Source of the DNA: a bacterium
Lineage (GTDB): Bacteria; UBA9089; CG2-30-40-21; SBAY01
Assembly: GCA_040757115.1 (NCBI GenBank)
Contig: JBFLYA010000076.1
Coordinates: 1-16,772, forward strand
DNA length: 16,772 bases
Reading direction: 5' to 3'
A model generated the notes under the pieces. That model had not been told where the DNA came from. It saw only the letters and a program-made list of their open reading frames with translations, and did no database searches. Within the stretch, counting starts at the first letter, position 1. The number at the start of each line of letters is the position of its first letter. The translations under genes and the position numbers were made by a program. This document shows, one piece after another, positions 1,213-16,772 of this stretch.

Positions 1213-1230
1213 GTAACCGTTCAGGATATA

Positions 1231-1606: not shown

Positions 1607-1666
1607 CCTAACCGCACAGGTCGAAAAGATTCAACCTGTGAAATAGGAATATTTTGATCGTGGTTA

Positions 1667-2126: not shown

Positions 2127-2157
2127 CAAATAGTGTGGTATAATTTTATTTTCCCAG

Positions 2158-2222: not shown

Positions 2223-2387
2223 TGGGTGAAACGCAAGATGTTTGGTGATAATTGCTGGTGCCCCACTACATATATTAACCACCTCTTTTTATAGGCTCAA
2301 AAAAGGAAGCAAAACAGTCTCTCAAAATACTATATTTTGTGTTTTGTAATTCCTAAAAGCCCAAATGTAGTGGCTGAACGGTTACTA

Positions 2388-2661: not shown

Positions 2662-2665
2662 CTAC

Positions 2666-3658
2666 CTACAAATACCCGTACCTTTTAAACCAGTAAAATG
2701 CTTTTTTAATTGATTCATCAATAGGTGTTTGAGGGGAAAACTCTATTCCCTTGATTGCTTTTTGAGGGGTAAAATAATGGTTAACATAGCCCATCTTTGA
2801 TAGACCTACCGTAATCATAGGTTCTTTTTTAGAAATGTGTTTACTCCATTGCTCAGATAAATAACTCATTCCCATAGATAGTGAATAGGGTATTCTCATC
2901 GTTGGAGGTTTTACACCTACTATCTGAGCAATCTTTTCAAATATCTCTCTATAGGTTAAATTCTGACTCGCTAAAATATACCTTTCGCCCACTTTGCCAT
3001 TTTTAAGCGCTAAAAAGTGTCCCTTGGCTACATCCTCTACATCAACAAAATTGTTCCCTCCTGGAGGATAACCTATAATCTTGCCTTTAGCCATCTCTAA
3101 TATCATTCGTCCTGAGGTAGGTTTTATATCCCACTCTCCAAACATATACGAAGGATTTACTATAATTAATGGAAGTCCTTTTCCCAGTATCTGTTGAGCT
3201 TTTATTTCCGCCTCATACTTACTATTAATGTAATCTATGTCTAAATATCCTAAATTGAAAGATGTAGTTTCATCCGCAGGTTCTCCCTTTTTAATCCCAA
3301 TAGTCGAAACAGTACTTGTATATACTACTTTCTCCACATTACTTTTAAGGGCTTCTTCAAGCACATTTATTGTCCCTCCGACATTAACATCCCACATCAT
3401 CTTTTTAGCCTGCTTATTCGGAACCCATAAGGAAACTATTCCGGCGGTATGAAACACCACATCACATCCTTTTAAAGCGTTGGCAATAGATTCTCTATTC
3501 AAAACATCACCATAGAATTTCTCAATATCTAACCTCTCCAGCCCTAATGTATTGCTTGTATTTCTAATGAGGGCTCTTACCATTAGTCCTTCTTGAATAA
3601 GTCTTCTTACCAGATTTACCCCTAAAAACCCAGTTGCTCCTGTAACTAATACCTTCAT
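2666..3658 (-). CDS. NAD(P)-dependent epimerase/reductase, extended SDR, HpnA-like (possible ceramide reductase)
   Basis: This 330-residue extended short-chain dehydrogenase has a Rossmann nucleotide-binding motif GATGFLG (residues 7-13), a TST active-site segment (114-116) and YINSK (Y143, K147). The pattern 'VNPSYMFGEWDIKPTSGR' near 167-184 is close to proteins annotated as hopanoid-associated sugar epimerase HpnA. Substrate cannot be read from sequence. In Caulobacter an enzyme annotated as an epimerase (CerR) reduces oxidised ceramide. With an SPT-like gene and a GNAT acyltransferase in the same gene block, a ceramide-reductase role is an attractive inference but unproven. The ATG directly follows the stop of the MacB-type permease gene with no spacer, so it is probably translationally coupled and the last gene of that unit. 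The length is normal, and the frame is intact. Confidence 0.85.
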   Translation of the reverse strand: MKVLVTGATGFLGVNLVRRLIQEGLMVRALIRNTSNTLGLERLDIEKFYGDVLNRESIANALKGCDVVFHTAGIVSLWVPNKQAKKMMWDVNVGGTINVLEEALKSNVEKVVYTSTVSTIGIKKGEPADETTSFNLGYLDIDYINSKYEAEIKAQQILGKGLPLIIVNPSYMFGEWDIKPTSGRMILEMAKGKIIGYPPGGNNFVDVEDVAKGHFLALKNGKVGERYILASQNLTYREIFEKIAQIVGVKPPTMRIPYSLSMGMSYLSEQWSKHISKKEPMITVGLSKMGYVNHYFTPQKAIKGIEFSPQTPIDESIKKAFYWFKRYGYL

Positions 3659-4858
3659 TTACTCATACCGTAATGCGACAATAGGGTCTAGATTTGATGC
3701 TTTGTAGGCAGGATAAATCCCGGAGAACATCCCTATTCCTAATGAAAAACTTACTGCCAGAATGATTGAATTTAACGAAATTACAGTTGGTATTTTGATA
3801 AATATAGAGGCAATATTTGCCAGAAGGATTCCTCCACCTATTCCAAGACACCCTCCAATGGTGGATATTGTTACCGCTTCAATTAAGAATTGTCCCATAA
3901 TGTCTTTGCCCCTTGCACCAATTGCCTTTCTTATCCCTATCTCCTTTCTCCTTTCCAAAACAGCGGTAAGCATCATATTCATTATACCAATCCCACCAAC
4001 TAATAATGAGATACAGGCAATTGCTACCCCAACTAAAGTAAGGGTTTGGTTTATTTGGGTATAAGTTTTTATAAATTCTTCTGAAGATTCTGCATTATAC
4101 TTTCCTCTATTCTGGTGTCGTTTCTTAAGAAAATTAATAATGAAAGAAGAAGCCTCTTCAACACTTATAGAGGGGATAAATCGAACCTGTAAAAAATCTA
4201 TGACCTCCTTTTTGTCTTTCTCAGCTATTCTAATAGCAATGTTATAAGGGATAAAAATTGCGTCTCCAACCCAACCTCCAATAGTCATTACTCCTATGTG
4301 CCTCCAGGCCATTACTCCAACCACTACGAATTTTTCCCTGCCTATTCTTATAACCTTTCCTATCGGATTTTCTTCTTTAAAGAATGTCTCTGAGATATCT
4401 TTTCCTATTATGCAGACATGATGTTGTAATTTTATATCCAAATTATTAATTAATCGTCCCATAATGAGAACACAACCTTCACCATGGAAAAAGTCAGAAG
4501 AAGTTACACCATGAATACTCACTTTATCTTTAACCTTACCTTTCGTCACTATCTTTTCTATGTTAATTCTTGGTTTACTGCTTTCTACAATAGGCAATCG
4601 TTCAATTGCTCTTGCATCTTCTAATGTTATCCTTCCTTTCTGATTTGTATTGGGATCATACTCAGAATATATATCTATAGTATTGATACCTAACTCTTCC
4701 AACAGGTTAAGAACCTGTTTTTTTGTTCCATTCCCTATGGATATAAGGGAAACAATCGCTCCTATTCCAATAAATATACTTAATATGGCTAATATAGAAC
4801 GTGTTTTATTTCCCCAGATGCCTATAAAGGCTATCCTTACCCATTCTCTAACTTTCAT
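3659..4858 (-). CDS. MacB-type ABC transporter permease (FtsX/MacB domain)
   Basis: The 399-residue inner-membrane protein has the MacB layout. There is one N-terminal membrane segment (about residues 16-38, preceded by RSILAILSIF), a periplasmic MacB_PCD-type domain to about residue 265, and three C-terminal membrane segments. The 'RRKEIGIRKAIGA' loop after the second membrane segment is typical of FtsX-family permeases. Unlike E. coli MacB, the ATPase is not fused; it is a separate upstream gene, as in many other bacteria. The first codon overlaps the ATPase stop (ATGA, 4855-4858), so the two are translationally coupled. With the MacA-like adaptor and TolC-like channel upstream, it should form a tripartite pump that passes a periplasmic substrate to the outside. 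The substrate is unknown. The peptide or the lipid products of neighbouring genes are candidates. Confidence 0.9.
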   Translation of the reverse strand: MKVREWVRIAFIGIWGNKTRSILAILSIFIGIGAIVSLISIGNGTKKQVLNLLEELGINTIDIYSEYDPNTNQKGRITLEDARAIERLPIVESSKPRINIEKIVTKGKVKDKVSIHGVTSSDFFHGEGCVLIMGRLINNLDIKLQHHVCIIGKDISETFFKEENPIGKVIRIGREKFVVVGVMAWRHIGVMTIGGWVGDAIFIPYNIAIRIAEKDKKEVIDFLQVRFIPSISVEEASSFIINFLKKRHQNRGKYNAESSEEFIKTYTQINQTLTLVGVAIACISLLVGGIGIMNMMLTAVLERRKEIGIRKAIGARGKDIMGQFLIEAVTISTIGGCLGIGGGILLANIASIFIKIPTVISLNSIILAVSFSLGIGMFSGIYPAYKASNLDPIVALRYE

Positions 4859-5535
4859 CTATTTCTTTCACCTATTATTTTCCCATCTTGAAGGTAAATA
4901 ACTCTTTTTGCAAAGGAGGCAATATGTTCATCATGGGTAACCACTAAGATAGTCTTCCCTTCTTGAGATAGGGAAATGAAGATGGCCATAATTTCATTTC
5001 CACATTTAGTATCTAAATTACCTGTTGGTTCATCGGCTAAGATTAGTGTCGGGGTATTGGCAAGTGCTCGCGCAATAGCTACTCGCTGTTGTTCTCCACC
5101 AGATAACTCATTAGGTCTATGATTTCTTCTATCAAAAAGTCCTACCTTCTCCAATAAATATAAACTCCTTTCTCTACACTCTCTTCTCACCGCCCCTCTA
5201 TAAACAAGAGGTAATTCAACATTCAAAAGGGCAGAATATTGTGGCAGTAAATTAAAACTTTGGAAGATAAAACCTATTTTTTTATTTCTGGTCATAGCCA
5301 CTTTGTCTCCATTGAAATTATTTACATATTCACCTTCAAAATAATGAAATCCTGAACTTGGAACATCTAAAAGTCCAATGATATTAAGTAAAGTTGACTT
5401 GCCAGAACCTGAAGGACCCATAATAGCTGTAAATTCCCCAGAACTAATTTGAAGCGAGATACCAGCTAAGGCACAAATATCCACACTACCCATTTTGTAA
5501 ATCTTAAAGATATCCTTTAATTCTATTATTCTCAT
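4855..5535 (-). CDS. MacB/LolD-type ABC transporter ATP-binding protein
   Basis: This 226-residue ATPase has all ABC motifs: Walker [10 protein letters not shown] (40-48), Q-loop Q92 in [13 protein letters not shown], signature LSGGEQQ (144-150), Walker B LILADEP (164-170), D-loop GNLD and switch His H201. The '[18 protein letters not shown]' segment and '[10 protein letters not shown]' are typical of the MacB/LolD/FtsE branch. It powers the adjacent permease (3659-4858), whose start it overlaps by four bases. The adaptor gene ends six bases upstream. The ATG at 5533-5535 has GAAGG only two bases before it and AAAGGA farther up, so initiation may rely on coupling. Length and motifs are complete, and I see nothing unusual. 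Confidence 0.92.
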
Positions 5536-5541
5536 AGCCTT

Positions 5542-6792
5542 CTATAAATTCCTTTCCCTTACCTTTACCCCAGCGGATATTTTCTCCTTATTTGAAGTAA
5601 TGATTTTCTCTCCTTCTTGCAATCCCTTTTTTATAACCACCTCTACTTCATTACTTACGCCAATTTCTACCTTTTTCATCCTGGCAGACGAACCTTCTAC
5701 CGTATAAACAAAGTATCTTCCATCTTTGTTTATTAAGGCATTTTGAGGAATAACTAATACATCCTTCATTTTGTCAATAGTTATCTCTATATCCGCCGAT
5801 AAATTGGGTATCAAAAGTAAGTCCGAAGGGAATTTTTTTAATTCAATAATTGCTTCCATATAAGGATATTCTCCGGATGTAGCACATGGAATAATCTTCA
5901 TAATTTCGCCTTCTAAATAATTCCTATCCGCAGGTAGCCACTCCCCAGTAATAGTGGCTTTCAGACATGGCTTTACTCTATTTATATCTAACTCCTCAAT
6001 CTTAGCTTTAAGTAATGGTTTGTCTAAATTCATTATTTTAAATAGAGTTTCTCCAACCAGGACATATTCTTTTAAACCAACTATGTCTTCTATTATTACG
6101 CCATTAATTGGCGAGATTATTTCTGTCTCTTTTAACTCATTCTCCGCCTTCTTAAGAATTTCTTTATCTAATTTTAATTTCTTCTCTACTTCAGACAAAT
6201 CATCCTTCCATACTTTCTCATAGTGTTCTATATCTACCTTCAATTGTGTTACATGGAGTTGTGCATCTTTAATTTCTTTGGTCAAAGAATCTAATTCAGG
6301 TAAAGAGATACTCTTTTTTTCATATAGCTCTTTGTAAATACATTCTTTCTTCTTAAGGTATTCCAAATTAGTATTTGCTTTGATGAGTTCATTTTTTGCC
6401 TTTGTCAGTTCATAAGGAGAATCTTTTAATCTATTTAATGAATTCTCATCTTTGATGAGGTTAAACTCTGCCTCTTTTAATGCTACTAGATATGGGGTTT
6501 TATCTATTTTTAAGAGCACCTTATCTTTCTTTACATATTCACCCTCTTTTATTGTTTTGAGGATTATCTTTCCTGAGACAGATGTTTTAATTTCTACGGA
6601 TTCTTCAGGAATTATTCTTCCTGTGGTAGATAAGGTAGAAATAAAATCCTTCTTTTTTACCGATGTTACATCTACATTACAAATAGGTGATTTTTTAATG
6701 GTTGTAAAGATAAAAATGGGTATAAGTAATAGGATTAGTAGCCCAATTATTAAAATAGAAACTTTTTTATGAAGATTGATTGATTTTTTCAT
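5542..6792 (-). CDS. MacA/HlyD-type periplasmic adaptor (membrane fusion) protein
   Basis: The 416-residue protein has an N-terminal membrane anchor (about residues 11-31). A biotinyl-lipoyl half-motif follows (GKIILKTIKEGEYVKKDKVL, about 75-95), then a long Lys/Glu/Leu-rich coiled coil (about 105-225). The returning lipoyl half is 'ISPINGVIIE...GLKEYV', and beta-barrel and membrane-proximal domains close the protein. This is the standard MacA/RND-adaptor order: it bridges the inner-membrane MacB pair to a TolC-type channel. The ATG overlaps the TolC gene's stop by four bases and has GGAGGAAAA just before it, a good ribosome-binding site that supports the start. The MacB ATPase begins six bases after its end. 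The coiled coil contacts the outer channel in known homologues. Confidence 0.9.
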   Translation of the reverse strand: MKKSINLHKKVSILIIGLLILLLIPIFIFTTIKKSPICNVDVTSVKKKDFISTLSTTGRIIPEESVEIKTSVSGKIILKTIKEGEYVKKDKVLLKIDKTPYLVALKEAEFNLIKDENSLNRLKDSPYELTKAKNELIKANTNLEYLKKKECIYKELYEKKSISLPELDSLTKEIKDAQLHVTQLKVDIEHYEKVWKDDLSEVEKKLKLDKEILKKAENELKETEIISPINGVIIEDIVGLKEYVLVGETLFKIMNLDKPLLKAKIEELDINRVKPCLKATITGEWLPADRNYLEGEIMKIIPCATSGEYPYMEAIIELKKFPSDLLLIPNLSADIEITIDKMKDVLVIPQNALINKDGRYFVYTVEGSSARMKKVEIGVSNEVEVVIKKGLQEGEKIITSNKEKISAGVKVRERNL

Positions 6793-8177
6793 TTTTCCTC
6801 CGGTCCACTAATTTCAAAAAATTCAATTTTAGCTATTTGGTGGTCAAATAGAGTTTCTATCTTCTCTAAGATAATTTTATCCAAAGTAATTTGTTTATCA
6901 CACAAATCTTCCTCTGCAATTATTTTTGCATCATATTGAGTTTGTGCAATGATAAGGTCTTGGCAGGCTATTTTTTCACTTTCTTGAAGCAGTTCAATTT
7001 GTCTTTCAAGATTTTTTATTTTAAGATACTTTTGGCGTGTAATAGATGTTATTTCTTTTTTTAGTGCTTCAAGGGTAAGTTGAGCGGCAGAATATTTATT
7101 TAAAGATGCTTTTATGTCAGAAGTAACCTCTCCACCAGTGAAAAAAGGTAAGGTAATATTTATTCTGACATTCCATTCTTTATTAAAATCATCAAGACTT
7201 TTTTTTAAGTTTTCATCAGATCTATCATAACCATAATTCCCAGTAATCATAGCAGAAACCTTTCTGCCACTGCGAGCTAAATTAATCTCTTTTTCTTTCA
7301 ACCTAATTTCTAATTGCTGAACTTGAATTTGCAGGTTATCTTCTAATGCTTTAGAAATTGCTTCTTTTAACTGTCCTTCATAAGGGATATAGTCAGGTAT
7401 AATATTAAAGTCAAATTCAGGTAAAGTATCAACATCAAGTAATTGTAAAAATTCTTCTCTTTTTCTTTCATAGATATCTTCAATCTTCATTAAATCATTT
7501 TTTGCAGTTAGAACCTCTAATTTTTTATTTAAGAGTAGAGAAGTGGTAATTATGCCCGCATCTAATTTAGATTCATACTTTTTTAGTTGTTCTTCTTTGA
7601 TGTTTAATAACTTTTGATTTAATTCTATCATCTTCCTATATTTAAGTAATTCATAATAATTTCTTGAAACTTGATAGACCAATTGTTTTTTTATTGATTC
7701 AAGATTAATTTTGGCTATTAAATATTGAATTTGTGCGATAGAAATATTGGTTGAAATCTGACCATTATCAAGTAACCATTGGGTTAGTCCAATATTTATG
7801 TTATTAGTATATTTTTTGGAATCTTCAGCATAAAATATATTCTTATATACCTCACGGTAGTCTTGTGGTATCCAACTTGGAACATCCTCTACTGACTTTT
7901 GATATGGGCTAAATTCTGTCTTGTTGTAGCCAGAATCTATATTGAGATAAAGATGTGGTAACCATTTTGCCCATGCCTTTTTAATATTGGCTTCTAAAGA
8001 AGCAATCTCTTTTAATGCTGATTGAAGTTTTAGACTATTCTTCAAGGCAATTTGAATACCATCCTCTAAAGTTAAAGGTTGGTGATTTTTAGCTTCTTGA
8101 GCTAAATTTTCTTTTGGTGTTAATATTAAAATAAATATTAATATTAATCTTCCTAAAAAAAAGATTCGATACAGCAT
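6789..8177 (-). CDS. TolC-type outer membrane efflux protein
   Basis: The 462-residue protein starts with a hydrophobic export signal (about residues 1-26, ending near LAQEA). Two repeats of the outer-membrane efflux protein domain follow, mostly long Lys/Glu/Leu/Gln-rich helices with short strand regions (for example LYLNIDSGYN and VRINITLPFFTGGEV). In homologues, three copies form one channel through the outer membrane and the periplasm. The length fits the family. It opens the tripartite set, followed directly by the adaptor and the MacB pair, so export through this pump is its likely job. It could also serve the ABC exporter upstream. Thirteen bases separate it from the small membrane-protein gene, and its ribosome-binding site is weak, which suggests expression as part of the operon. 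Confidence 0.88.
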   Translation of the reverse strand: MLYRIFFLGRLILIFILILTPKENLAQEAKNHQPLTLEDGIQIALKNSLKLQSALKEIASLEANIKKAWAKWLPHLYLNIDSGYNKTEFSPYQKSVEDVPSWIPQDYREVYKNIFYAEDSKKYTNNINIGLTQWLLDNGQISTNISIAQIQYLIAKINLESIKKQLVYQVSRNYYELLKYRKMIELNQKLLNIKEEQLKKYESKLDAGIITTSLLLNKKLEVLTAKNDLMKIEDIYERKREEFLQLLDVDTLPEFDFNIIPDYIPYEGQLKEAISKALEDNLQIQVQQLEIRLKEKEINLARSGRKVSAMITGNYGYDRSDENLKKSLDDFNKEWNVRINITLPFFTGGEVTSDIKASLNKYSAAQLTLEALKKEITSITRQKYLKIKNLERQIELLQESEKIACQDLIIAQTQYDAKIIAEEDLCDKQITLDKIILEKIETLFDHQIAKIEFFEISGPEEK

Positions 8178-8190
8178 TTATTCTTAGTAT

Positions 8191-8676
8191 TTAGAAAAAG
8201 ATATCCTTTACCAAATCGAAAAATTTCTTTGATAAACTCTTTTTCTCTTTTTCCCCTTTCGTGATGATAATAATTATAGTTACTACCACGCTGATAATTA
8301 TAGCCAGAGTAGGGATAAAAAAACCAAAAACCCTATAGCTTATAGAAATTAATGCGTAACTTCCTATCAAAGTAATAAAAAGACCTATAAATATGGCACA
8401 TATAATAAGTGGCTTGATAATAAGATTTAAGATAGTGTTATAGATGAGTTTGAGAATCTCTCCGCTCTTGAGTATATTTTTTTCTATGGTGGTAAGACTA
8501 TCTTTTCTAAGACGAACTCGATAAATAAATATACCCACTAATATCCCTAAGGCAATAAAAAATATATCCCTTAGTGTAATCCAATGAGTGATTATATTTT
8601 CGATTAATATCTTTAAAGTGGCAATGCAATTGAACCACCATGGTAAATAATGATTGATGACATCATTTAACAACAT
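8191..8676 (-). CDS. Small membrane protein of unknown function (3 predicted membrane segments)
   Basis: I do not recognise this 161-residue protein. It has a hydrophobic stretch at about residues 37-53 (IFFIALGILVGIFIY) followed by a basic loop (RVRLRK). Two closely spaced membrane segments follow at about 83-107 and 116-138, and the tail is short, basic and Phe-rich. The loop between segments (about 54-82) is amphipathic. It is the first gene behind a good sigma-70-like promoter (8758-8786), and its 5' leader contains a short hairpin. No clear ribosome-binding site precedes ATG 8676, so the start is less certain. Position at the head of the TolC-MacA-MacB genes suggests an accessory role in that pump or in self-protection against an exported peptide, but that is only inference from context. 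Confidence 0.7.
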   Translation of the reverse strand: MLLNDVINHYLPWWFNCIATLKILIENIITHWITLRDIFFIALGILVGIFIYRVRLRKDSLTTIEKNILKSGEILKLIYNTILNLIIKPLIICAIFIGLFITLIGSYALISISYRVFGFFIPTLAIIISVVVTIIIIITKGEKEKKSLSKKFFDLVKDIFF

Positions 8677-8690
8677 TTAACTATTCCAGA

Positions 8691-8714
8691 CAGAAACAGA
8701 TTTTTCTGCTTCTG
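8691..8714 (-). promoter_or_regulatory. Hairpin in the 5' leader of the small membrane-protein gene
   Basis: CAGAAACAGA (8691-8700) and TCTGCTTCTG (8705-8714) pair over ten bases with one mismatch and a 4-base loop. The stem ends 14 bases before ATG 8676 and lies downstream of the promoter, so it would be in the transcript leader and could affect translation. It has no T-run, so it is not a terminator. A regulatory role is inferred from position only. Confidence 0.35.
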
Positions 8715-8757
8715 TTAATTTGAAATTTGCTCTCATCCCTGATTTGAACCTACCTAC

Positions 8758-8786
8758 ATAATACTCGAACTTAAAGCAAAAGTCAA
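8758..8786 (-). promoter_or_regulatory. Sigma-70-like promoter for the TolC-MacAB unit
   Basis: On the minus strand TTGACT (8781-8786) and TATTAT (8758-8763) are separated by exactly 17 bases, close to the ideal vegetative promoter. It lies in the only sizeable gap (137 bases) within the downstream half of the gene block, after the ABC exporter and before the small membrane-protein gene at 8676. It would start transcription about 75 bases upstream of that ATG and split the block into two transcription units. Confidence 0.65.
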
Positions 8787-8813
8787 CTGTTTTCTACATT
8801 GTTTTATAAAATT

Positions 8814-10586
8814 CTAACTAAAGTTATAAGAGCATGTGGCATCTTCTATTCTTTGAAACTGTCTTTGAAACAGACGATAATAATATCCCTTTTCTTTAAT
8901 TAAATCAAAATGTGAGCCCATTTCTACAAGTTTACCCTGATGTAATACAATTATTTTCTCAGCGTTTATAACAGTTCCCACACGATGGGCAATAATAATA
9001 GTGGTTTTCCCTTTAATAAGATTTATTAATAAGTTATGGAATTCTATTTCTGCTTTTGGGTCTAAAGATGAGGTAGCTTCATCTAAGATAAATATATTGG
9101 GATTCTTTAGCAGGGCTCTAGCAATTGTAATAAATTGTCGTTCTCCTCCAGATAATTTTATTCCTCCTTCTCCAACCATTGTCTGATATTTATTGGGAAG
9201 GGCAGTAATAGAGTTATGAATCCCTACAGTTTTTGCCACTGCAATAATTTCTTCTTCACTTGCGTTTTTCTTACCAAAGGCAATGTTATCATAAATAGAG
9301 CCATTAAATAAAATTGTCTCCTGAGGGATATATCCAATCCTTTCTCTTAAAGAGCTAATAGTAACATCTTTAATATCCCGATTGTCAATTTTGACCTTTC
9401 CATTAGTTGGATCATAAAATCGAAGGAGGAGGTTTATCAAAGAGCTCTTGCCTGAACCATTAAGTCCTACCAAAGTTACAATTTCCCCTGGTTTTATCTC
9501 TAAATTAATATCCTTTAAAGCAAAAAAATTATCTTCATAGCGCAGGGAAACTTTTTCAAATTGAATATGTCCTTTTATTCTATTAGTGAAGGGGAAAGCA
9601 TCAGATTTATCTTTTATTTCAGATTCAATAGATAAAATCTCATAGATTCTATCAAGAGAGGCTAATGATCTTTGAAAATCAATATAAAAATTACTCACAC
9701 CAGTTAGAGAATCTGTCAATAGATATAAATAGAATAATAATCCTCCCAGCGTTCCTGGAGTTAATAACCCTTGATTAATCTCATATCCTCCATACCAGAT
9801 AATGAGTATTAGGAAAAATGGATTTAAAAAATTTATTAAAGAACCAAAACCAGCATATATCTTTTCTTCTTTTAAAGAAGATGAAAGGAGATGACTACTT
9901 TCTTTTGAGAATCGGTCAATCATCTTATTTTCTTGAACAAATGACTGAATAATCTTTATGGAAGGGAAAAGTTCCTGAAAAAGGGCATTTATCTTGCCTG
10001 TTTTTACCCGGATATCATAGCTTATTTTTCTCATTTTTTCTCCAATTTTAACCGTAAGAAAGGCTATAATTACTATTCCAGATATCATAATTATTGATAT
10101 TTTCCACGAAAGTATAAAAATAATAACCAATCCTCCTATTGAGAATAGTGTATCTTTCAAAAAATAGAGGAAATCTAAAATGACTCCATATTGGATTTGG
10201 TTGAGGTCGTTAAATGCTCGAGAGCAAATCTCTCCTGACTGTCTGTTTTTAAAGAAACTGAGTGGTAGATTAATTAAGTGAGAATAAAGGTTTTCCCTCA
10301 GATCTACCGTAATCCTTTCTCCAATATATCTTGCCAAATAATTTAGACAATATTGGAACAATTCCCTAAATAGTATTATGATTAGGCAAAGTAAACATAA
10401 TTCTGAAATAACCCATATCCTTTTTCCTTTTTGCAATATACCATCAATAATTTCCTTTATTAATAAAGGAAACCATAAGTTCAAGATAGTTATAAAAATA
10501 AGGAATATAGAAACTATTACCATCTTAATTTTATATTCCTTCAGATAAATTAATATTATTGAGAATAATTTTGTTGTATTATTCAA
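8814..10586 (-). CDS. ABC exporter, fused membrane and ATPase domains (MsbA/peptide-exporter type)
   Basis: The 590-residue half-transporter has six membrane segments in the first about 300 residues and then a complete ATPase. That includes Walker A GLNGSGKS (374-381), Q-loop in PQETILFNGSI (Q422), signature LSGGE (478-482), Walker B ending ILDEATSSLD (500-509) and switch His H534. There is no N-terminal C39 peptidase domain, so it should not cleave leaders itself; the nearby S26 peptidase could. It probably acts as a homodimer that moves a peptide or lipid across the inner membrane. The start is TTG at 10584-10586, overlapping the nucleotidyltransferase gene by eight bases; AGGAGG lies about 11 bases upstream, inside that gene. 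The overlap points to coupled translation with the peptide-tailoring genes. Substrate choice between peptide and lipid is not visible from sequence. Confidence 0.9.
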   Translation of the reverse strand: MNNTTKLFSIILIYLKEYKIKMVIVSIFLIFITILNLWFPLLIKEIIDGILQKGKRIWVISELCLLCLIIILFRELFQYCLNYLARYIGERITVDLRENLYSHLINLPLSFFKNRQSGEICSRAFNDLNQIQYGVILDFLYFLKDTLFSIGGLVIIFILSWKISIIMISGIVIIAFLTVKIGEKMRKISYDIRVKTGKINALFQELFPSIKIIQSFVQENKMIDRFSKESSHLLSSSLKEEKIYAGFGSLINFLNPFFLILIIWYGGYEINQGLLTPGTLGGLLFYLYLLTDSLTGVSNFYIDFQRSLASLDRIYEILSIESEIKDKSDAFPFTNRIKGHIQFEKVSLRYEDNFFALKDINLEIKPGEIVTLVGLNGSGKSSLINLLLRFYDPTNGKVKIDNRDIKDVTISSLRERIGYIPQETILFNGSIYDNIAFGKKNASEEEIIAVAKTVGIHNSITALPNKYQTMVGEGGIKLSGGERQFITIARALLKNPNIFILDEATSSLDPKAEIEFHNLLINLIKGKTTIIIAHRVGTVINAEKIIVLHQGKLVEMGSHFDLIKEKGYYYRLFQRQFQRIEDATCSYNFS

Positions 10587-11745
10587 CTACCTTTATTCCT
10601 CCTTTAAACACTTTATTTATTAAGAATAAAACAAGCAAAGTAAATATTCTTATGACATCTCGAATATTCTCTGCCATAAAAATAGACGCTCCTATTGGAA
10701 TACCATCTCTTCCCATTTTACTGAGTAACTTAGGCAAAAATTTATCATCAAAAAAATTCTCAACATCTTTAAACAATTTAAAGAATAATATTCTTTTAAT
10801 CCTCCAAGGTTTTAAATCATCTAAAATTTTTAAAGGAATTGGAGCATCAAGTAATCTTTCGGCAAAATAAAAAGTAAAATACATAGAATTTTTTATTCGA
10901 TACTCATAAGATTTCTTAACTACATATTCCCAGTTTATCGTATAATAGGTAACAATATTTGTTATATCGCCTATAAGTTTCAATTCAAAGTTATGGTTAA
11001 TAGATAGATGAGGACAGAGACTCAATAACATATCTTCGGGTGAAAGTATAAGTGTATTAACTTCCCCTAATTGAGAAAATTGGGCATTTTCCCATATATC
11101 TTTCATTTCTATTTTTTGAAATAAAACACCTTCAAATACTGTAGTATGAATCTCTAAAGGTATTTTTACCTGTGGATGGATATACATAGGATGTAGCAGA
11201 ATCTTTCTTTTTCTTTCTCTAAAAAGGACCCATAGTAGCCACTCTGCAATTTTTGAGACATTAATTTCTTCTTTATAATAAAGGACATAACCTAACTCAT
11301 CTAACATTTTCTCACATTTGAACATATCCTCTTTGCGAACTAAAAGATCAATATCTCCAACTCCTCTTAGATATATAAGATTAGAATAGACTTTCTCTAA
11401 AGAATACCCTTTAAAAAGAATAACTTTTAGATTATTTTTATAGAATTTTTCTAAAATTCTATTTAGTTCCTTCTCATACCTTAAAGATTCAATAATGTAC
11501 CTTTTATATAAATTCTCCAATTTCATTATAACTTCACATGATAATATCTCTTTTAGATTAATTCTCTTTAAATTGTAATATAGTAAAGCCTGAATATTAT
11601 GAACCTTGGCCTTTTCTAATATATATCTCCAATTTAATTTTTCTTTTAAAAGTTCTATAACTTTATCAGATATATCCTTGTTGATTGTTACTCTTGTACA
11701 GTAGAGTAAAACTAAATTTTCTTTTAAAAATTTCTTTACTTTCAC
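10579..11745 (-). CDS. Nucleotidyltransferase-fold protein (PF14907-like, NTP_transf_5)
   Basis: In this 388-residue protein, 'VILFKG' (108-113) followed by 'YLRGVGDIDLLV' (125-136) is the hallmark of the uncharacterised nucleotidyltransferase family: KG, then an R-x-x-x-D-I-D metal site, here D131 and D133. Family members often sit in RiPP and PqqD-containing clusters. In some lasso-peptide clusters such an enzyme acts after an HprK-like kinase to extend a phosphate on the peptide's C-terminal serine. Such a kinase is encoded nearby (13995-14846), and the precursor ends in Ser. The start is GTG 11745, 24 bases after the signal-peptidase gene, with only a weak GGAAAA upstream. Its end overlaps the exporter gene by eight bases. 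Function here is inference; the family call rests on the motif. Confidence 0.78.
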   Translation of the reverse strand: MKVKKFLKENLVLLYCTRVTINKDISDKVIELLKEKLNWRYILEKAKVHNIQALLYYNLKRINLKEILSCEVIMKLENLYKRYIIESLRYEKELNRILEKFYKNNLKVILFKGYSLEKVYSNLIYLRGVGDIDLLVRKEDMFKCEKMLDELGYVLYYKEEINVSKIAEWLLWVLFRERKRKILLHPMYIHPQVKIPLEIHTTVFEGVLFQKIEMKDIWENAQFSQLGEVNTLILSPEDMLLSLCPHLSINHNFELKLIGDITNIVTYYTINWEYVVKKSYEYRIKNSMYFTFYFAERLLDAPIPLKILDDLKPWRIKRILFFKLFKDVENFFDDKFLPKLLSKMGRDGIPIGASIFMAENIRDVIRIFTLLVLFLINKVFKGGIKVVE

Positions 11746-11769
11746 TGGTCAAATTTTCCAATTTTGATA

Positions 11770-12396
11770 CTACAAAATTTCCCTCTTATTTTTCAGGAGT
11801 GTAGGATAAGGTAATTTTTTACTGCTGATTTTACTATACATGTTATAAATACCAAAGATAATTACCCAGGGGATTATAGTAATTATTTCGCCTATTTTAC
11901 CTATAATCAGTGGGAAGTAGGATATTAAACATACCCTTTTTAATAAAGATATACATATCGCTACTGCAAATGAATATTTTGCTGTTAAATAAGAAAATAT
12001 TTTTACTCTCTTATTCTCTAAATCTATTTTTAGTCCATTTTTTTTTATTATTTCTCTTACCTTACCTATTACTTTTTCTTCTTCGACTAATTCATCAATA
12101 AAAAAAACAAAATCTCCTTTCGTTAAGAAACTTTTTCCCTTTATCTCTTGTTGTATTCTAATAACTCTATGGCCAATAAACATCTCTTCTTCACCATAAT
12201 GAACTACAATAATATCTCCTACTTTAATTTCCTCGGTAGGAATTTTCTTAATCAAGATCTTATCTGAATAATTAATCCATGGAAACATACTCCACCCTTT
12301 TACTCCCGAATATAAAATTGCTCCTTTTTCTAAGCACTCTTTAGCTAATTCCAATTCAGTTTTTGTATATTTTTTGTTTTGTTGGACAAAATTCAT
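11770..12396 (-). CDS. S26-family signal peptidase, ER/archaeal-type Ser-His, candidate leader peptidase
   Basis: The 208-residue protein has GWSMFPWI (34-41) with the nucleophile S36. 'IGHRVIRI' holds H76 in the place where the usual bacterial enzyme has lysine, so it belongs with ER/archaeal or SipW-like signal peptidases. 'LTKGD' (91-95) and D101 complete the active-site box. Membrane helices come after the catalytic part (about 141-185), not before it. Cutting the leader off the radical-SAM-modified peptide would fit its place in the gene order, but there is no direct proof. It starts at ATG 12396 with AGGAG about seven bases upstream. It is the first gene after the strong terminator hairpin behind the precursor gene. 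The C-terminal about 70 residues have no recognised domain. Confidence 0.8.
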   Translation of the reverse strand: MNFVQQNKKYTKTELELAKECLEKGAILYSGVKGWSMFPWINYSDKILIKKIPTEEIKVGDIIVVHYGEEEMFIGHRVIRIQQEIKGKSFLTKGDFVFFIDELVEEEKVIGKVREIIKKNGLKIDLENKRVKIFSYLTAKYSFAVAICISLLKRVCLISYFPLIIGKIGEIITIIPWVIIFGIYNMYSKISSKKLPYPTLLKNKREIL

Positions 12397-12415
12397 TCTT
12401 CTCCTCTCCAGTAAG

Positions 12416-12444
12416 ATTATAGTAAAGTACTATCTCCCACCTTT
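12416..12444 (-). promoter_or_regulatory. Possible weak promoter after the terminator hairpin
   Basis: TATAAT lies on the minus strand at 12416-12421, between the terminator hairpin and the signal-peptidase gene. No good -35 box is seen 17 bases upstream (AAAGGT-like). It could restart transcription for the tailoring and export genes, but a chance match in AT-rich DNA is possible. Confidence 0.25.
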
Positions 12445-12446
12445 CT

Positions 12447-12490
12447 AAAAAGTCGCAGTTTACTTTGATGAGTAAACTGCGACTTTTTTT
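12447..12490 (-). terminator. Perfect 18-bp terminator/attenuator hairpin behind the precursor gene
   Basis: Bases 12447-12464 and 12471-12488 are exact reverse complements (core AGTCGCAGTTTACT), with a 6-base loop. Both sides carry A/T runs, so the structure can stop transcription from either direction; on the minus strand the stem ends in five Ts. It lies 18 bases after the stop of the 44-residue precursor and 51 bases before the next gene. This is where RiPP operons often carry a partial terminator that makes precursor mRNA more abundant than mRNA for the tailoring genes. Confidence 0.88.
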
Positions 12491-12507
12491 GTTAGACTAC
12501 TTCGCTG

Positions 12508-12642
12508 CTACGACTTAGAGTTGACCTTACATCCATTCTTGCACCGACACGGCTTAGTTTTAATAGTCTTATTGCACCACAAAGCAGTCTCCTCAAATAT
12601 TTTTTCTGAAATAATTTGAGGCGTTTCATATTGCCGTTTCAT
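12508..12642 (-). CDS. Cys-rich RiPP precursor peptide (44 aa), putative radical SAM substrate
   Basis: This small gene encodes 44 residues. The first about 21 form an acidic leader (MKRQYETPQIISEK, then IFEETAL; Glu at 6, 13, 17, 18). The rest is a basic core with C23, C32, C34 and C38, seven Lys/Arg, no acidic residue and a C-terminal serine (ending NSKS). The ATG overlaps the 3' end of the radical SAM gene by 17 bases. The ribosome-binding site ATCACCTCCTTTCT (plus strand, 12648-12661) matches the usual 3' tail of 16S rRNA over 14 bases, which implies very high translation. An 18-bp terminator follows the stop. The leader/core charge split, the position next to rSAM and PqqD genes, and the strong expression signals together support a RiPP precursor. 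The ring chemistry (thioether at Cys or another link) cannot be read from sequence. I know no named family for it. Confidence 0.85.
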   Translation of the reverse strand: MKRQYETPQIISEKIFEETALWCNKTIKTKPCRCKNGCKVNSKS

Positions 12643-13699
12643 TTCTTATCACCTCCTTTCTCATTTCAGCTATCTCCTTGTCGTAAGGAGAACAGGCTAA
12701 TAATCCATATCCTTCCAAAAATGTAGCTCCCATACATTTCCCACACAGATTAGCAATATCACAATTGTAACATTCTTCATCAATAGCACGCAAGTTTCTT
12801 ATTTCAAAAAGTTTTTCTGATGTCCACCAGATATTATGAAATGTATCCTTTCTTAGATCTCCTACTTCTACCGGCATCCCTATACAAGGGAAAACTTTTC
12901 CAATTGGAGAAATTGCACATTGAATCGTTCCTGTTCCACAAAATTCTCGATATGGTCTTTCTTTAATACTTTCCTTTTCTTCTCTTGGTATACACGCTTT
13001 TTCTTCTATCCATATACCAGTTCCCCTTTCTTTCTCATACACATTTTTAAGAAAAACAAATAATTCTGACCTATTAAGTCTATACTTTGCGGGTTCAGAA
13101 TCCCCATCATTTTTATAAGTGATATATACATCTGGCCTGGTTAATATTCCTAATTTTTCCCCCATTTCTTTTATTAATTTATATTCTTTAAAATTCTGCT
13201 TCATATATATAGTTTTTAAGATAACCTTTATTCCACTATCTTTCAATAATCTAATAGCATTCATAGTTTTTTCAAACGAACCATTTGTTCTTGTAATTTT
13301 ATCATGAGTTAACGCTGTAGCCCCATAGAGACTAATTTCTACTGAAGAAACATGCAGTTCTTTTATCTTTCTTACTATTTCTGAATCTATTAAGGTTCCA
13401 TTAGTATATAGAATAACATCAAACATATTTTCTCTCGCATAACTTATTATGGTAAATAAATCTTTTCTTAAAAAAAATTCACCGCCGGTAAATGTAATGG
13501 TAAACACTTTTTCTCCCGCCAGTTGGTCTATAATATTTTTAATCTCTTCTGTAGAAAGTTCCTCTTCTGGAGATTGAGAATATTTTACTACATAACAATG
13601 GATACATTTCAAATTACACCAACAAGTAAGTTCAATTGCTGCTGTAAGTGGAAAGCCCTTTTCCATATATTTTTTTGCTAATTCATCTTCAAGACCCAT
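12626..13699 (-). CDS. Radical SAM/SPASM peptide-modifying enzyme (PqqE-like)
   Basis: The 357-residue protein has the radical SAM cluster motif C28-x3-C32-x2-C35 (CNLKCIHC) and a GGE motif (72-74). A SPASM domain follows, with C254, C261, C272, C310, C313, C319, C322 and C336 (CGTGTIQC, then ECYNCDIANLCGKC). That is enough for two extra [4Fe-4S] clusters. Family members such as PqqE, AlbA-type and other peptide maturases make C-C or thioether links on small peptides held by a PqqD-type partner. Here PqqD is the gene directly upstream and a Cys-rich peptide the gene directly downstream, overlapping by 17 bases. A strong GAGGTGAT site precedes ATG 13699. The likely job is cross-linking of the 12508-12642 peptide; the type of bond is unknown. 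Confidence 0.9.
   Translation of the reverse strand: MGLEDELAKKYMEKGFPLTAAIELTCWCNLKCIHCYVVKYSQSPEEELSTEEIKNIIDQLAGEKVFTITFTGGEFFLRKDLFTIISYARENMFDVILYTNGTLIDSEIVRKIKELHVSSVEISLYGATALTHDKITRTNGSFEKTMNAIRLLKDSGIKVILKTIYMKQNFKEYKLIKEMGEKLGILTRPDVYITYKNDGDSEPAKYRLNRSELFVFLKNVYEKERGTGIWIEEKACIPREEKESIKERPYREFCGTGTIQCAISPIGKVFPCIGMPVEVGDLRKDTFHNIWWTSEKLFEIRNLRAIDEECYNCDIANLCGKCMGATFLEGYGLLACSPYDKEIAEMRKEVIRNETAI
12648..12661 (-). promoter_or_regulatory. Exceptionally strong ribosome-binding site for the precursor peptide
   Basis: The plus strand reads ATCACCTCCTTTCT, identical over 14 bases to the usual 3' tail of bacterial 16S rRNA. The minus-strand mRNA would therefore pair with the ribosome over the whole stretch. 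The AGGAGG core ends nine bases before ATG 12642. The site lies inside the last codons of the radical SAM gene (encoding K-E-V-I), so that gene's end is constrained by it. It supports the precursor start. Confidence 0.85.
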
Positions 13700-13729
13700 T
13701 TGAAATCACCTCACTTTATCCAAGAAGAT

Positions 13730-14005
13730 TCAAATCATCTCTAAAACTATTAGTTTCTTATTGCATAATTCTTTTACAAAGTCACAAACTTCTTTTTTAG
13801 CCACATCCTCTTCAACATTATACTCATTACAAATGATGTAAATAATCTCTTTGATAGTCATTTTCCCATCTGCAAGTTCCCATATTCTAGTTCCTACTTC
13901 ATTTAAGGAATGTAGAATTCCTTCTTCTGGAGACAAAATCGTGGCATTATTGTCAATTATCCTAAATGCTGTATTCATACTTCTAACTACATAACTATTG
14001 ATCAT
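13730..14005 (-). CDS. PqqD-family peptide chaperone (RiPP recognition element)
   Basis: This 91-residue protein is the full length of a stand-alone PqqD domain. It shows the winged-helix pattern of the family: 'SPEEGILHSLNEVGTRIWELADGKMTIKEI' in the middle, followed by 'EEDVAKKEVCDFVKELCNKKLI'. PqqD domains bind RiPP leader peptides and hand them to radical SAM enzymes, so its role should be to hold the acidic leader of the 44-residue precursor. It overlaps the kinase gene by 11 bases. A clear GGAGGTG precedes ATG 14005, and the radical SAM gene starts 30 bases after its stop. It could also serve the kinase, as PqqD/HprK-like pairs occur without radical SAM genes. I consider the PqqD call firm. 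Confidence 0.88.
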   Translation of the reverse strand: MINSYVVRSMNTAFRIIDNNATILSPEEGILHSLNEVGTRIWELADGKMTIKEIIYIICNEYNVEEDVAKKEVCDFVKELCNKKLIVLEMI

Positions 14006-14846
14006 TTTTTATACACCTCCAAAAAGATTTATTAGGTAAGAAATGTAGTTCATAACAGGGAATTTTTTCTACCAAATTACAGCATAAAGTAAACAATTTG
14101 TTACTTATCTCACTTCTATGAGAAAAAAATATGATATTTGGCATAATTTCTACTACAGCCTTATATGGAGATAATTTTTTTAGATATACATCTTTATCTT
14201 TTTTTAATAGGAAAATTTTCTTAATCTCCGAAGAAATGTTAACATTATTCCCTTCCTCCCATAACATCCCCCAAAATGGAACTCCAAATATTTTATATCT
14301 TCTATTAATGTTGCGAATAAGAGTTATTTCATCGGTCAACAAAATTGTATCATCTTTTAATAAGTTAGCTATTGTTGACTTTCCTGCTTCAGAGGGGCCA
14401 CAAAATACAAATCCTTCCTTGGAATCAATTACACTTGATGCATGTAACAAGATTCCTTCATAATATTTTGGGAATAACCAACCAGCACACATCCGTAAGA
14501 AATTTTCTACTCCCTCTATCTCTATTTCCTGAAGTTTTAATTCTCCTTCATTTCTTCTAAAATCTATTATTCCTGAAAAATCCCACCTAAAAACGAAAAT
14601 TTTGTCTTTTTTAGAGATAATTTTCAATTCCCGAAGTTCCTTCAATTTAATGTTCTTTTTAACTTGTACATCTATTATAAAATTAGGTTCTTTCATTGAT
14701 AAAAAAGTATTATATTTTCTTTTAATTAAATCCATCAACTCATAATTATCACCTCTAAAAACAAAACATATTTCTCCAATTTCTATAGTTACCTTATTAT
14801 AACCACAAATTTCATTTTGAAGTTTATAACTCTTCACTTCTTGCAT
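13995..14846 (-). CDS. HprK-related P-loop kinase, candidate peptide serine kinase
   Basis: The 283-residue protein has a P-loop GPSEAGKST (150-158), a preceding 'LLHASSV' strand (133-139) and 'LTDEITLI' (170-177) with D172/E173. These are features of HPr-kinase-like and PEP-carboxykinase-like folds. The N-terminal 120 residues have no recognised domain. HPr-kinase-related proteins sit next to PqqD genes in several bacterial systems, and in some lasso-peptide clusters one phosphorylates the C-terminal serine of the precursor. The precursor here ends in Ser, and a nucleotidyltransferase is encoded a few genes on, so the same two-step decoration can be proposed. The GGAAGG site precedes ATG 14846 after a 23-base gap from the GNAT gene. 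The gene ends inside the PqqD gene. The substrate is unproven; a metabolic HPr-type role is less likely because no HPr gene is nearby. Confidence 0.75.
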   Translation of the reverse strand: MQEVKSYKLQNEICGYNKVTIEIGEICFVFRGDNYELMDLIKRKYNTFLSMKEPNFIIDVQVKKNIKLKELRELKIISKKDKIFVFRWDFSGIIDFRRNEGELKLQEIEIEGVENFLRMCAGWLFPKYYEGILLHASSVIDSKEGFVFCGPSEAGKSTIANLLKDDTILLTDEITLIRNINRRYKIFGVPFWGMLWEEGNNVNISSEIKKIFLLKKDKDVYLKKLSPYKAVVEIMPNIIFFSHRSEISNKLFTLCCNLVEKIPCYELHFLPNKSFWRCIKNDQ

Positions 14847-14869
14847 TTATGACCTTCCTTTCTCCTTAA

Positions 14870-15967
14870 CTATATTTTCATCTCATAGATTCGGTATCTT
14901 TTATATAACTTACCTCCCATTTTCTCTGCTGCTCTTTGGGTTAATATATTATCCTCCAGGATCCATGAAAACTCACATTGCTGATAACCTTTTTTTAAGG
15001 CTATTTTTAACGATTCTAAGTAGAGCAACGCCTCAAATCCTCTTCTTCTATATTCGGGTTTAACTCCCATAGCTATCACACGCAAACTCTTAATCTTTCG
15101 GAGTCGCCATAATAATTTTATTGTATCCCACCAGTGTTTATTCAAATTTCTTAACGCCTCGTTATAATTAGGCAAAGTCATAACAAATCCTGCAAAATTG
15201 CCTTTCACTTCTAAAATAAGTAGTAACTCTGGAACAAGTAAAGATTTTAATCGTTTTGCCATATACATAATCTCTTCATCTGTCATTGGGACGAAACCCC
15301 AGTTGTCACGCCAACTGGTATTATAAATCTCTTTAATTATATTTATCTCTTGCGCAAAATTTTTCAAGTTTATCGGTCTAACCCGAGCTCTTTGTTTTTC
15401 CACTCTCTTAGATATTTTCTCCATATTTCCAATCTGTGCTGGTGTAATTTCAAAAAGATAGGCATATAAATCTTTACACTTTTCTAACCCATATTTTTCT
15501 ATGTAGTCAATATAATACCGAGGATTATATGGCATCATTAAAAATGGTGGGGAATCAAAACCTTCAACTAAAAAACCACATTCATCATTCATAGATGGAT
15601 TTACCGGTCCTCGGATTATCTCAATATCTTTTTCTCTTAACCAATCACAAACTTCATCCAGCAACCTTTTAGCAAAAGCATAATCCCTTGAACACTCAAA
15701 AAAACCGAAGAAGCCACATTTTTCATTATGAAAACTGATATGATTATAATCAATAATTCCAGCAATCCGTCCTACTATTTTCTCTTTTTTTCTTAGTAAA
15801 AAGAGCATTCTTTCGGCATGATTCCACAAAGGATTCTTATTTCCAAGGATAAATTTGTACTCCTTAATTTGAGGAGGAATCCAGTTCATATCACCTTTAT
15901 AGACTCTCCAAGGAAACCTTACAAAATCAGTTAGGGATCTATCTTCCTTTACTACTTCAATATTCAT
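14870..15967 (-). CDS. Large GNAT-type N-acyltransferase, possibly a ceramide-synthase-like enzyme
   Basis: The 365-residue protein belongs to a long GNAT family. It begins with a 'FPWRVYKGDMNWIPP' segment (18-32) and has 'KCGFFGFFE' (83-91) and 'RGPVNPSMNDECG' (119-131). A standard GNAT fold closes it, with the acyl-CoA loop GVKPEYRRRGFEALL (301-315). Proteins with this layout are often encoded beside serine-palmitoyltransferase-like enzymes. The truncated SPT-like gene lies 16 bases upstream, which suggests N-acylation of a sphingoid base. In Caulobacter ceramide is built by SPT, an N-acyltransferase (bCerS) and an epimerase-like reductase (CerR); I cannot show that this protein is the orthologue. 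Because it lies next to the RiPP genes, acylation of the peptide is another possibility. No good ribosome-binding site precedes ATG 15967. Confidence 0.75.
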   Translation of the reverse strand: MNIEVVKEDRSLTDFVRFPWRVYKGDMNWIPPQIKEYKFILGNKNPLWNHAERMLFLLRKKEKIVGRIAGIIDYNHISFHNEKCGFFGFFECSRDYAFAKRLLDEVCDWLREKDIEIIRGPVNPSMNDECGFLVEGFDSPPFLMMPYNPRYYIDYIEKYGLEKCKDLYAYLFEITPAQIGNMEKISKRVEKQRARVRPINLKNFAQEINIIKEIYNTSWRDNWGFVPMTDEEIMYMAKRLKSLLVPELLLILEVKGNFAGFVMTLPNYNEALRNLNKHWWDTIKLLWRLRKIKSLRVIAMGVKPEYRRRGFEALLYLESLKIALKKGYQQCEFSWILEDNILTQRAAEKMGGKLYKRYRIYEMKI

Positions 15968-15983
15968 ATCAACTTGTATTTTT

Positions 15984-16652
15984 TTATCCTGGGATTAAAT
16001 TTAATTTCTTTCCTACAGATTCGAATATTTCAAGAGCCTTATCTAACTGTTCATCTGTATGAGTAGCCATATAAGTAGTTCGAATACGCGATTGCTCTTT
16101 GGGTACTGCTGGAGTAATAACTGGATTAGTAAAAATACCATTATCAAAGAGCAATTTCCACATTTGAAAAACTTGAAAATTATCACCAATAATAATAGGA
16201 ATGATTGGAGTTTCACTCTTTCCGATATTAAATCCTAAAGTTTTAAGTTCTCTTCGCATCTTGTTCACATTCTCCCAAAGTCTCTGTCGTCTTTCTGGCT
16301 CCTTCTCGATAATTTCTATTGCTGTACTAATTGAAGCTGCCAAAGATGGAGGTAAACTTGCACTAAACATTAAACTTCTAGCATGATGTTTCAAATAATG
16401 AATTACTTCTTCATCTCCAGCAATAAATCCTCCTATTGAAGCCAATGATTTGCTACAAGTACCCATAACTAAATCAACTTCATCTTCTAGCCTAAAATGT
16501 TCTAAAGTCCCTCTGCCATCCCTTCCTAAGATACCTGTACCATGGGCATCATCAATCATAATGCGGCCATTATACTTTTTAACCAGGTGAACCAATTCAG
16601 GAAGTTTAACAATATCTCCTTCCATACTAAAAACTCCTTCACTCACTGTTAA
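15984..16652 (-). pseudogene. Serine-palmitoyltransferase-like (alpha-oxoamine synthase) enzyme, 5'-truncated by an IS end
   Basis: About 222 C-terminal residues remain of a fold-type-I PLP enzyme normally near 395 residues. Visible features are SEGVFSMEGD, IDDAHGTG with the PLP-ring His (codon 16542-16544), and GTCSKSLASIGGFIAG with the PLP lysine (codon 16449-16451). The tail TTYMATHTDEQLDKAL is typical of the group. The 'SKSLASIGGF' form and the neighbouring GNAT gene favour serine palmitoyltransferase over BioF or the threonine-side enzyme Kbl. Upstream of about 16652 the sequence changes into repeats of an IS end. The open frame continues to a GTG at 16754, but those residues (GQFSLPNLF and so on) are IS sequence, not enzyme. 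About 175 N-terminal residues are missing, so the product is probably inactive unless the rest lies beyond the window in a different arrangement. Confidence 0.8.
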
Positions 16653-16772
16653 TGGCAAACCAAAATTGACCCACTTTTGGCAATGGAAATTGACCCACCC
16701 ATGTAAAAAAATCAGATCAAAAATGAACAAATTTGGCAATGAGAATTGACCCACCCCCGGATATAAAGATTG
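16653..16772. mobile_element. End of an IS21-like element with multiple terminal repeats
   Basis: Three related units of about 22 bases share GGCAA and AATTGACCCAC, at 16654-16676, 16679-16700 and 16735-16756; the core AATTGACCCAC is exact at 16664-16674, 16688-16698 and 16744-16754. Several short repeats at each end are a hallmark of IS21-family elements (binding sites for IstA). The junction with the SPT-like gene is near 16653, where TG would be the element's first bases. No transposase gene is visible; it would lie beyond the window. The family call comes from the repeat pattern and remembered 'GGGTCAATT' wording. Confidence 0.6.

Follow-up and report, generated by a model that had tools for sequence, protein, structure and literature searches.

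The window analysed here is a stretch of 16,772 nucleotides from an uncultured bacterium (GenBank assembly GCA_040757115.1, contig JBFLYA010000076.1, positions 1 to 16,772), and it very likely carries a cassette for a ribosomally synthesized and post-translationally modified peptide (RiPP) that resembles those of the Linear Polyphosphorylated Peptides (LPP) and includes a radical SAM enzyme. On the minus strand, the genes are arranged in the order of an HprK/ScmC-like kinase, a PqqD-type protein, a radical SAM/SPASM (rSAM) enzyme, a precursor peptide, a hairpin, an archaeal-type signal peptidase of family S26, an NTP_transf_5 nucleotidyltransferase, an MsbA-like exporter, a small membrane open reading frame (ORF), a TolC-like channel, an HlyD-type protein, and a MacB-type pair (Table 1). 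The same gene set is found in a related genome, G002, with the S26 and NTP_transf_5 genes in swapped order, and an orthologue of the MsbA-like exporter is present in the cassettes of both G002 and a same-genus relative, G001. The original prediction, made from the DNA letters alone, had described the precursor with its PqqD and rSAM genes and had missed the kinase as well as the S26, NTP_transf_5, and exporter genes downstream.

Table 1. Features of the cassette, listed in the direction of the minus strand (RRE, RiPP recognition element; AF2, AlphaFold2).
Feature	Position	Strand	Basis or remark
HprK/ScmC-like kinase, 283 aa, predicted to phosphorylate the precursor	13995..14846	-	Weak family scores, AF2 fold, aligned catalytic residues
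PqqD-type discrete RRE, 91 aa, predicted YxxP-leader binder	13730..14005	-	PF05402 3.6e-17
Radical SAM/SPASM peptide maturase, 357 aa	12626..13699	-	PF04055 3e-28, PF13186 4e-8
Ribosome-binding site of precursor gene, AAGGAGGTGAT	12648..12658	-	Read from sequence
Precursor peptide gene, 44 aa, product MKRQYETPQIISEKIFEETALWCNKTIKTKPCRCKNGCKVNSKS	12508..12642	-	Homologues at same place in relatives
Predicted leader, residues 1-20, last residue Ala20 (Y+15)	12583..12642	-	Inferred from LPP cut position (PMC13381572) and Ala/Ser preference
Predicted core LWCNKTIKTKPCRCKNGCKVNSKS, Cys at core +3, C-terminal Ser	12511..12582	-	Inferred
18-bp hairpin and U-run 3' of precursor gene (terminator or 3' end protection)	12447..12488	-	Folding
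Archaeal-type signal peptidase (S26), predicted leader peptidase, LppS-like	11770..12396	-	TIGR02228 59.6 bits (cut-off 51.85 passed)
NTP_transf_5 nucleotidyltransferase, LppN/PsmN-like	10579..11745	-	PF14907 1.1e-45
MsbA-like ABC exporter without peptidase domain	8814..10586	-	PF00664, PF00005; TIGR02204 5.9e-132
TolC-like outer-membrane channel	6789..8177	-	PF02321 7.7e-49; order same in G002
HlyD/CusB-type membrane-fusion protein	5542..6792	-	PF16576, PF13437
MacB-type ABC ATPase and permease pair	3659..5535	-	PF00005, PF12704, PF02687; order same in G002

The precursor ORF and the rSAM gene overlap by 17 nt, at the 3' end of the latter. The DNA 5' of its ATG is AAGGAGGTGATAAGAAATG, in which a complete match to the anti-Shine-Dalgarno (anti-SD) sequence is placed 5 nt from the start codon. 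On the 3' side, a perfect inverted repeat of 18 bp with a loop of 6 nt is followed by five U residues; its folding energy is -27.3 kcal/mol against -12.0 kcal/mol in shuffled sequences (z = -6.0). This hairpin was found by folding and had been overlooked by a simple terminator scan. Strong hairpins, different from that of the window, are also located 3' of the precursor in two relatives, and a Rfam scan of the window gave no RNA family. A search of related genomes with the 44-residue protein retrieved two homologues, MKKTYKTPQIVTEEAFTATAAYCCKAGTNLPQCKKKSYPKT in G002 and MRKVYQKPAISSEKMFEQAALGCATSYLPDPDCYAKENNVACRGMHIKS in G001, with E-values of 1.6e-4 and 0.007 (per six-frame genome). Both lie directly 3' of a homologous rSAM gene, which in G002 encodes a protein 42% identical to that of the window, and both have a 10-nt SD match; in G001 the rSAM gene is broken at the contig end, and the linkage there concerns its C-terminal half only. 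Because two related genomes hold a homologue at the same place, the 44-codon ORF is, judged by sequence comparison, a real precursor gene. In G001 (L039:802-4991, G001:C84), two MacB-like permeases, an S26 gene, and a second kinase and PqqD lie 3' of the precursor, as if the cassette were partially duplicated.

Much of the original prediction is borne out by these results: the near-ideal ribosome-binding site, a hairpin that may be the gene's own terminator, the PqqD and rSAM/SPASM genes, and the reading as a radical SAM RiPP system in which a leader/core precursor is recognized by a PqqD-type protein; related small ORFs do lie beside homologous rSAM/PqqD pairs, as it would require. No family model in Pfam or NCBIfam matched the 44-aa peptide, in agreement with its failure to match the core to a named family. 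The leader that it called acidic has the YxxP start and is acidic only mildly (four Glu against three Lys/Arg in residues 1-22). The C-x8-C-x-C-x3-C spacing (Cys23, Cys32, Cys34, and Cys38) and the basic core (seven Lys/Arg and no Asp/Glu in residues 23-44) are true of the window peptide. However, the Cys residues number four, three, and three in the window and its two relatives with unlike spacings, and the G001 core contains three acidic residues; the leader is kept while the core is changed, so neither the four-Cys spacing nor the acid-free core is a family feature; both were dropped as defining traits. Since they are not conserved, the suggested membrane-active or antimicrobial product is left unsupported, and nothing points to antimicrobial action in particular. 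Family members keep a YxxPx[IVL] leader, a first Cys whose distance from it is constant, mostly a second Cys, and a C-terminal Ser or Thr; the window peptide ends in KS, with Ser44 as its last residue.

Related loci were sought with an alignment of the kinase, since a contig scan with the single rSAM sequence gave no match. Related loci turned up in records titled Omnitrophota, Nitrospirae, Chloroflexota, KSB1, Verrucomicrobia, and Desantisbacteria, as well as in 61 of the 386 genomes searched. Among the approximately 60 loci, most of the strong matches combine the kinase with PqqD and rSAM genes, often together with S26 and NTP_transf_5 genes, and the loci mostly encode a YxxP peptide with its own SD sequence. 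Fifty such peptides were compared: three Cys occur in 27 of them, and the last residue is Ser or Thr in 40, an ending seen in 9.7% of 373 long ORFs from the same loci. A tree of the rSAM proteins places the window in a clade of 11 rows; in the peptides of this clade, the distance from the leader Tyr to the first Cys is 17-19 residues, and the approach to this Cys mostly reads [F/L/I/V]-E-x-x-A-L-x-C, while a larger clade of 28 rows (support 100) is associated with YxKPxIKxVxLxPEEAVLxxCK peptides in which the distance is 19-20; thus, leader type and enzyme type correspond. Two of the loci (L057:5112-5528 and L062:1858-2226) carry two tandem precursors per cassette with near-identical leaders and different cores, an arrangement expected if the family diversifies its cores.

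Catalytic residues are retained in the kinase and the peptidase. The kinase scores weakly against its families (ScmC TIGR04249, 1e-7; HprK_rel_A, 2e-5; both under the curated cut-offs), and its AF2 model (predicted local distance difference test, pLDDT, 85.6) matches phosphoenolpyruvate carboxykinase and HPr kinase folds, as expected for the superfamily. A search with PqqD led to an annotated paeninodin lasso-peptide cluster on a Priestia plasmid, which was taken as a yardstick; tblastn of the kinase itself against plasmids gave no match. The kinase profile aligns with the kinase of that cluster (hhalign probability 98.1, E = 8e-14) including the catalytic H135, K156, D172, and E173, which correspond to the H-K-D-D set essential in lasso kinases (PMC9266682). 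All 43 members have H135, K156, and either Asp or Glu at position 173, and 41 of them have D172. The tailoring kinase of the Priestia cluster (L187:4045-4980, WP_243495797.1) is annotated as "aldolase", while its sequence is that of an HprK-like kinase. The PqqD protein has lasso_PqqD_Bac as its best NCBIfam model (4.7e-14, under the cut-off). In the rSAM enzyme, the CX3CX2C motif (C28/C32/C35) and six SPASM Cys are unchanged across 38 relatives, with C261 and C336 of the SPASM region found in seven and six of them; the nearest solved folds to its AF2 model (pLDDT 85.4) are SkfB, CteB, SuiB, and PqqE. In the S26 peptidase, S36 and H76 are kept in 14 of 14 members and D95 in at least 90%.

LPP were described in 2026 from the lpp cluster of Paenibacillus alginolyticus (Nat Commun; PMC13381572); that study presented them as linear peptides confined to Bacillota and left unsettled what the end product is and what the NTP transferase does. 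All five LPP core genes, those for an archaeal-type signal peptidase, a PqqD-type RRE, an HprK-like kinase, an NTP_transf_5 protein, and an MsbA-like exporter (PMC13381572), are present in the window cassette, with the S26 gene (TIGR02228) in company with a discrete RRE. The LPP leader, YxxPxVLxHQxIxFET, is cut after the Thr at Y+15 by the signal peptidase LppS, which requires the RRE LppB; several phosphates are carried by one residue, Y+18 (core Ser3), and no activity was seen for LppN (PMC13381572). The window leader YETPQIISEKIFEETALWC shares YxxPx[VI], a short FE(T) motif ahead of the predicted cut, and the cut position Y+15, which is Ala20 here, whereas HQ is absent and the Phe lies at Y+11, not at Y+13. 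Among 17 window-type peptides, Y+15 is Ala in 12 and Ser in two more (14/17), and it is Ala in 20 of 29 peptides of the other type. In contrast, Y+18, the phosphorylated Ser in LPP, is Cys23 in the window and Cys in 14 of the 17 window-type peptides. Furthermore, the window cassette contains an rSAM/SPASM gene, of which the LPP study makes no mention (PMC13381572), adds a C-terminal Ser/Thr and TolC/HlyD/MacB genes, and has relatives outside Bacillota. Because two features of LPP, the YxxPxVLxHQxIxFETxxS motif with Ser at Y+18 and the lack of a crosslinking enzyme in a linear product, fail here, the cassette is placed as a sibling of LPP, LPP-like in its working with an added radical SAM step, and not as a member. 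The original description of the system as undescribed-looking is half right: it holds for the combination with rSAM, while the remaining gene set is that of a published family.

The sequence itself shows the genes and their joint conservation, the leader, the constant positions of Cys and Ser/Thr, and the catalytic residues of kinase and peptidase. From named precedents the following pathway may be drawn, in which every chemical step, and the order of the steps, is a proposal. The PqqD-type protein would bind the leader motif YETPQI, as the YxxP motif is bound in LPP (PMC13381572), and the rSAM/SPASM enzyme would then modify the core, most likely forming thioethers from the conserved Cys, the first of which is at core +3. 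The HprK-like kinase would phosphorylate the C-terminal Ser44 in the fashion of the paeninodin-type kinases PadeK and PsmK; Ser44 is the predicted target because Cys occupies the LPP phosphorylation site and the C-terminal Ser/Thr is kept as in paeninodin-type precursors. By analogy with PsmN, the NTP_transf_5 protein may extend or decorate the Ser44 phosphate. The signal peptidase, analogous to LppS, would cut after Ala20 and free the modified core LWCNKTIKTKPCRCKNGCKVNSKS; this cut is predicted because LPP is cut at Y+15, Ala is common there, and S36/H76/D95 are kept. Secretion is suggested by the paired exporters, the MsbA-like exporter probably acting as the pump, perhaps together with the TolC/HlyD/MacB genes. 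As a whole, an exported RiPP made by an LPP-like pathway with a radical SAM step and C-terminal phosphorylation is a fairly probable reading of the locus; on their own analogies, thioether formation by the rSAM enzyme is reasonably likely, and C-terminal phosphorylation is likely to about the same degree.

The paeninodin-type lasso clusters (PadeK, PsmK, PsmN) share with the window an H-K-D-D kinase, a nucleotidyltransferase, a PqqD-type B1 protein, an exporter, and a precursor whose last residue is Ser, the residue that is phosphorylated; the precursors read in two lasso clusters also have this ending. The C-terminal Ser is the target of PadeK, and PsmN works on this Ser once it is phosphorylated (PMC9266682). 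The window kinase has these catalytic residues, with Glu173 replacing the last Asp, together with the C-terminal Ser on the precursor. The window has S26 and rSAM genes instead of the lasso enzymes, and a leader motif with Tyr rather than Trp; lasso membership was rejected, since neither ORFs nor domains of a macrolactam cyclase (C) or a B2 leader peptidase were matched in the window cluster. The SynChlorMet cassette (NCBIfam TIGR04248-TIGR04251: ScmC, ScmD, ScmE, ScmF) also combines a ScmC-like kinase with PqqD, rSAM/SPASM, and YxxP peptides, and it has two rSAM genes, unlike the one in the window. The window scores miss every curated cut-off by far (in bits, ScmC 31.6/125, ScmD 37.6/100, ScmE 104.9/400, ScmF 86.9/400), no ScmC match was found in the window's own genome at 1e-15, and membership was rejected. 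Long YxxP peptides with tandem C-x-x-G-[ST]-x-A repeats were noticed at five surveyed loci (L191:296-577, L120:12454-12759, L125:3750-3992, L126:8099-8389, L175:6747-7025); L191 and L120, with their long multi-Cys repeat peptides, are the loci where ScmC is above the NCBIfam cut-off, and the remaining ones have two rSAM genes. From their sequences, these repeat peptides look like SynChlorMet precursors. The SynChlorMet cassette is not known to have an identified precursor.

Several observations weigh against the proposed pathway. The conserved Cys would fit disulfides as an alternative to thioethers. LppK phosphorylates an internal Ser, not a C-terminal one as proposed for Ser44 (PMC13381572). 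Ala at Y+15 is also found at loci where no S26 gene was detected. The binomial probability of the C-terminal Ser/Thr excess is approximately 1e-31, a value that overstates independence because the 50 peptides are related to each other, even though they come from divergent rSAM lineages, and the window-type rSAM clade has a support of 90 in the Shimodaira-Hasegawa-like approximate likelihood ratio test (SH-aLRT) and is not starred. Furthermore, at seven rSAM loci where the region examined holds no kinase gene, four peptides end in Ser and three do not. The four Ser-ending control loci (L144, L145, L146, L152) mean that the link between the C-terminal Ser/Thr and an adjacent kinase is not strict, and kinase presence as the sole predictor of this residue was ruled out; from sequence, the ending appears to follow the peptide family more than the neighbouring kinase. 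A related kinase is encoded elsewhere in each of these four genomes and might act in trans. Where the kinase match is weaker and the peptides are of other types, three loci have peptides ending in Lys and two in Gly.

Among other explanations, an ordinary sactipeptide or ranthipeptide, that is, a bacteriocin with rSAM-made Cys thioethers whose kinase and nucleotidyltransferase are incidental or regulatory neighbours, is unlikely, yet it survives best. The rSAM/SPASM fold and Cys-rich cores are shared with the sactipeptide maturases (SkfB, AlbA, StsB) and the ranthipeptide enzyme PapB, and SkfB is the closest solved protein by sequence (5.4e-18) and by fold, followed by CteB and SuiB. However, the RRE of the window is a separate PqqD protein, the kinase, S26, and nucleotidyltransferase genes belong to the cassette, and kinase, PqqD, and rSAM genes stand together in dozens of loci from unrelated groups; nor would this explanation account for the C-terminal Ser/Thr. 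The rSAM scores are also far under the cut-offs (83-118 bits against 300-850 for the AlbA, SkfB, and StsB models; 75.9 of 340 bits for PapB), for which sactipeptide membership was rejected. A SCIFF or six-Cys ranthipeptide of the PapB type was likewise rejected, with four Cys here and two to four typical of the family. Slightly less likely still is plain LPP chemistry, with the phosphate on an internal residue near the cut and an rSAM reaction unrelated to Cys, such as epimerisation or a C-C link: all five LPP genes are there, Y+18 is the same fixed position, and the hydroxyl residues Thr26 and Thr29 lie near the N end of the predicted core, but Y+18 is Cys rather than Ser in most window-type peptides, LppK tolerated neither Thr nor Tyr at the residue that it phosphorylates (PMC13381572), and the C-terminal Ser/Thr is conserved. 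A peptide scaffold for a small redox cofactor or pigment of the PQQ or mycofactocin kind, degraded after modification, is improbable; PqqD and PqqE-like proteins are present, and the best rSAM models are AhbD, NirJ2, and the mycofactocin maturase, all far under cut-off, whereas the cassette has a dedicated peptidase and exporters and lacks oxidoreductase genes, and the cores vary highly, also in Cys number. That the 44-codon ORF is not a gene, as its shortness and lack of a family match might suggest, is refuted by the same-position homologues with a full SD each and by dozens of similar peptides at related loci.

In several uncultured groups, the survey finds the LPP gene set combined with a gene for a radical SAM maturase, with precursors that offer fixed, testable positions: a Cys at a set leader distance, a C-terminal Ser/Thr, and a predicted cut. 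It also provides precursor candidates for ScmC-type cassettes. A description of rSAM together with an HprK-type kinase in a RiPP pathway was not found in the open-access literature, and earlier work elsewhere is possible; if the proposed pathway is true, it would be, as far as that literature goes, the first pathway in which a radical SAM maturase is paired with phosphorylation of the peptide. More tentatively, and with rather less confidence than for the pathway itself, the cassettes may form a separate RiPP class in uncultured groups, in which an rSAM crosslink at a fixed N-terminal Cys is combined with a phosphate (then a nucleotidyl or glycosyl group) on a C-terminal Ser/Thr and with release by a signal-peptidase-like enzyme, and to which the LPP and SynChlorMet products would be siblings.

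Some minor features flank or interrupt the cassette. Between the exporter and TolC genes, positions 8191-8676 encode a predicted membrane protein of 161 aa, without a Pfam or NCBIfam match and absent from G002. At 14870-16772, GNAT and serine-palmitoyltransferase/BioF-like genes precede the kinase in the same orientation, spaced by 23 and 16 nt, and may be cotranscribed with it; G001 and G002 lack them at this location. Up to the contig edge (16600-16772), the N-terminal portion of the BioF-like ORF does not resemble the BioF family and contains a repeat-like sequence, GWVNFHCQKWVNF, possibly as a result of an assembly join or a rearrangement.

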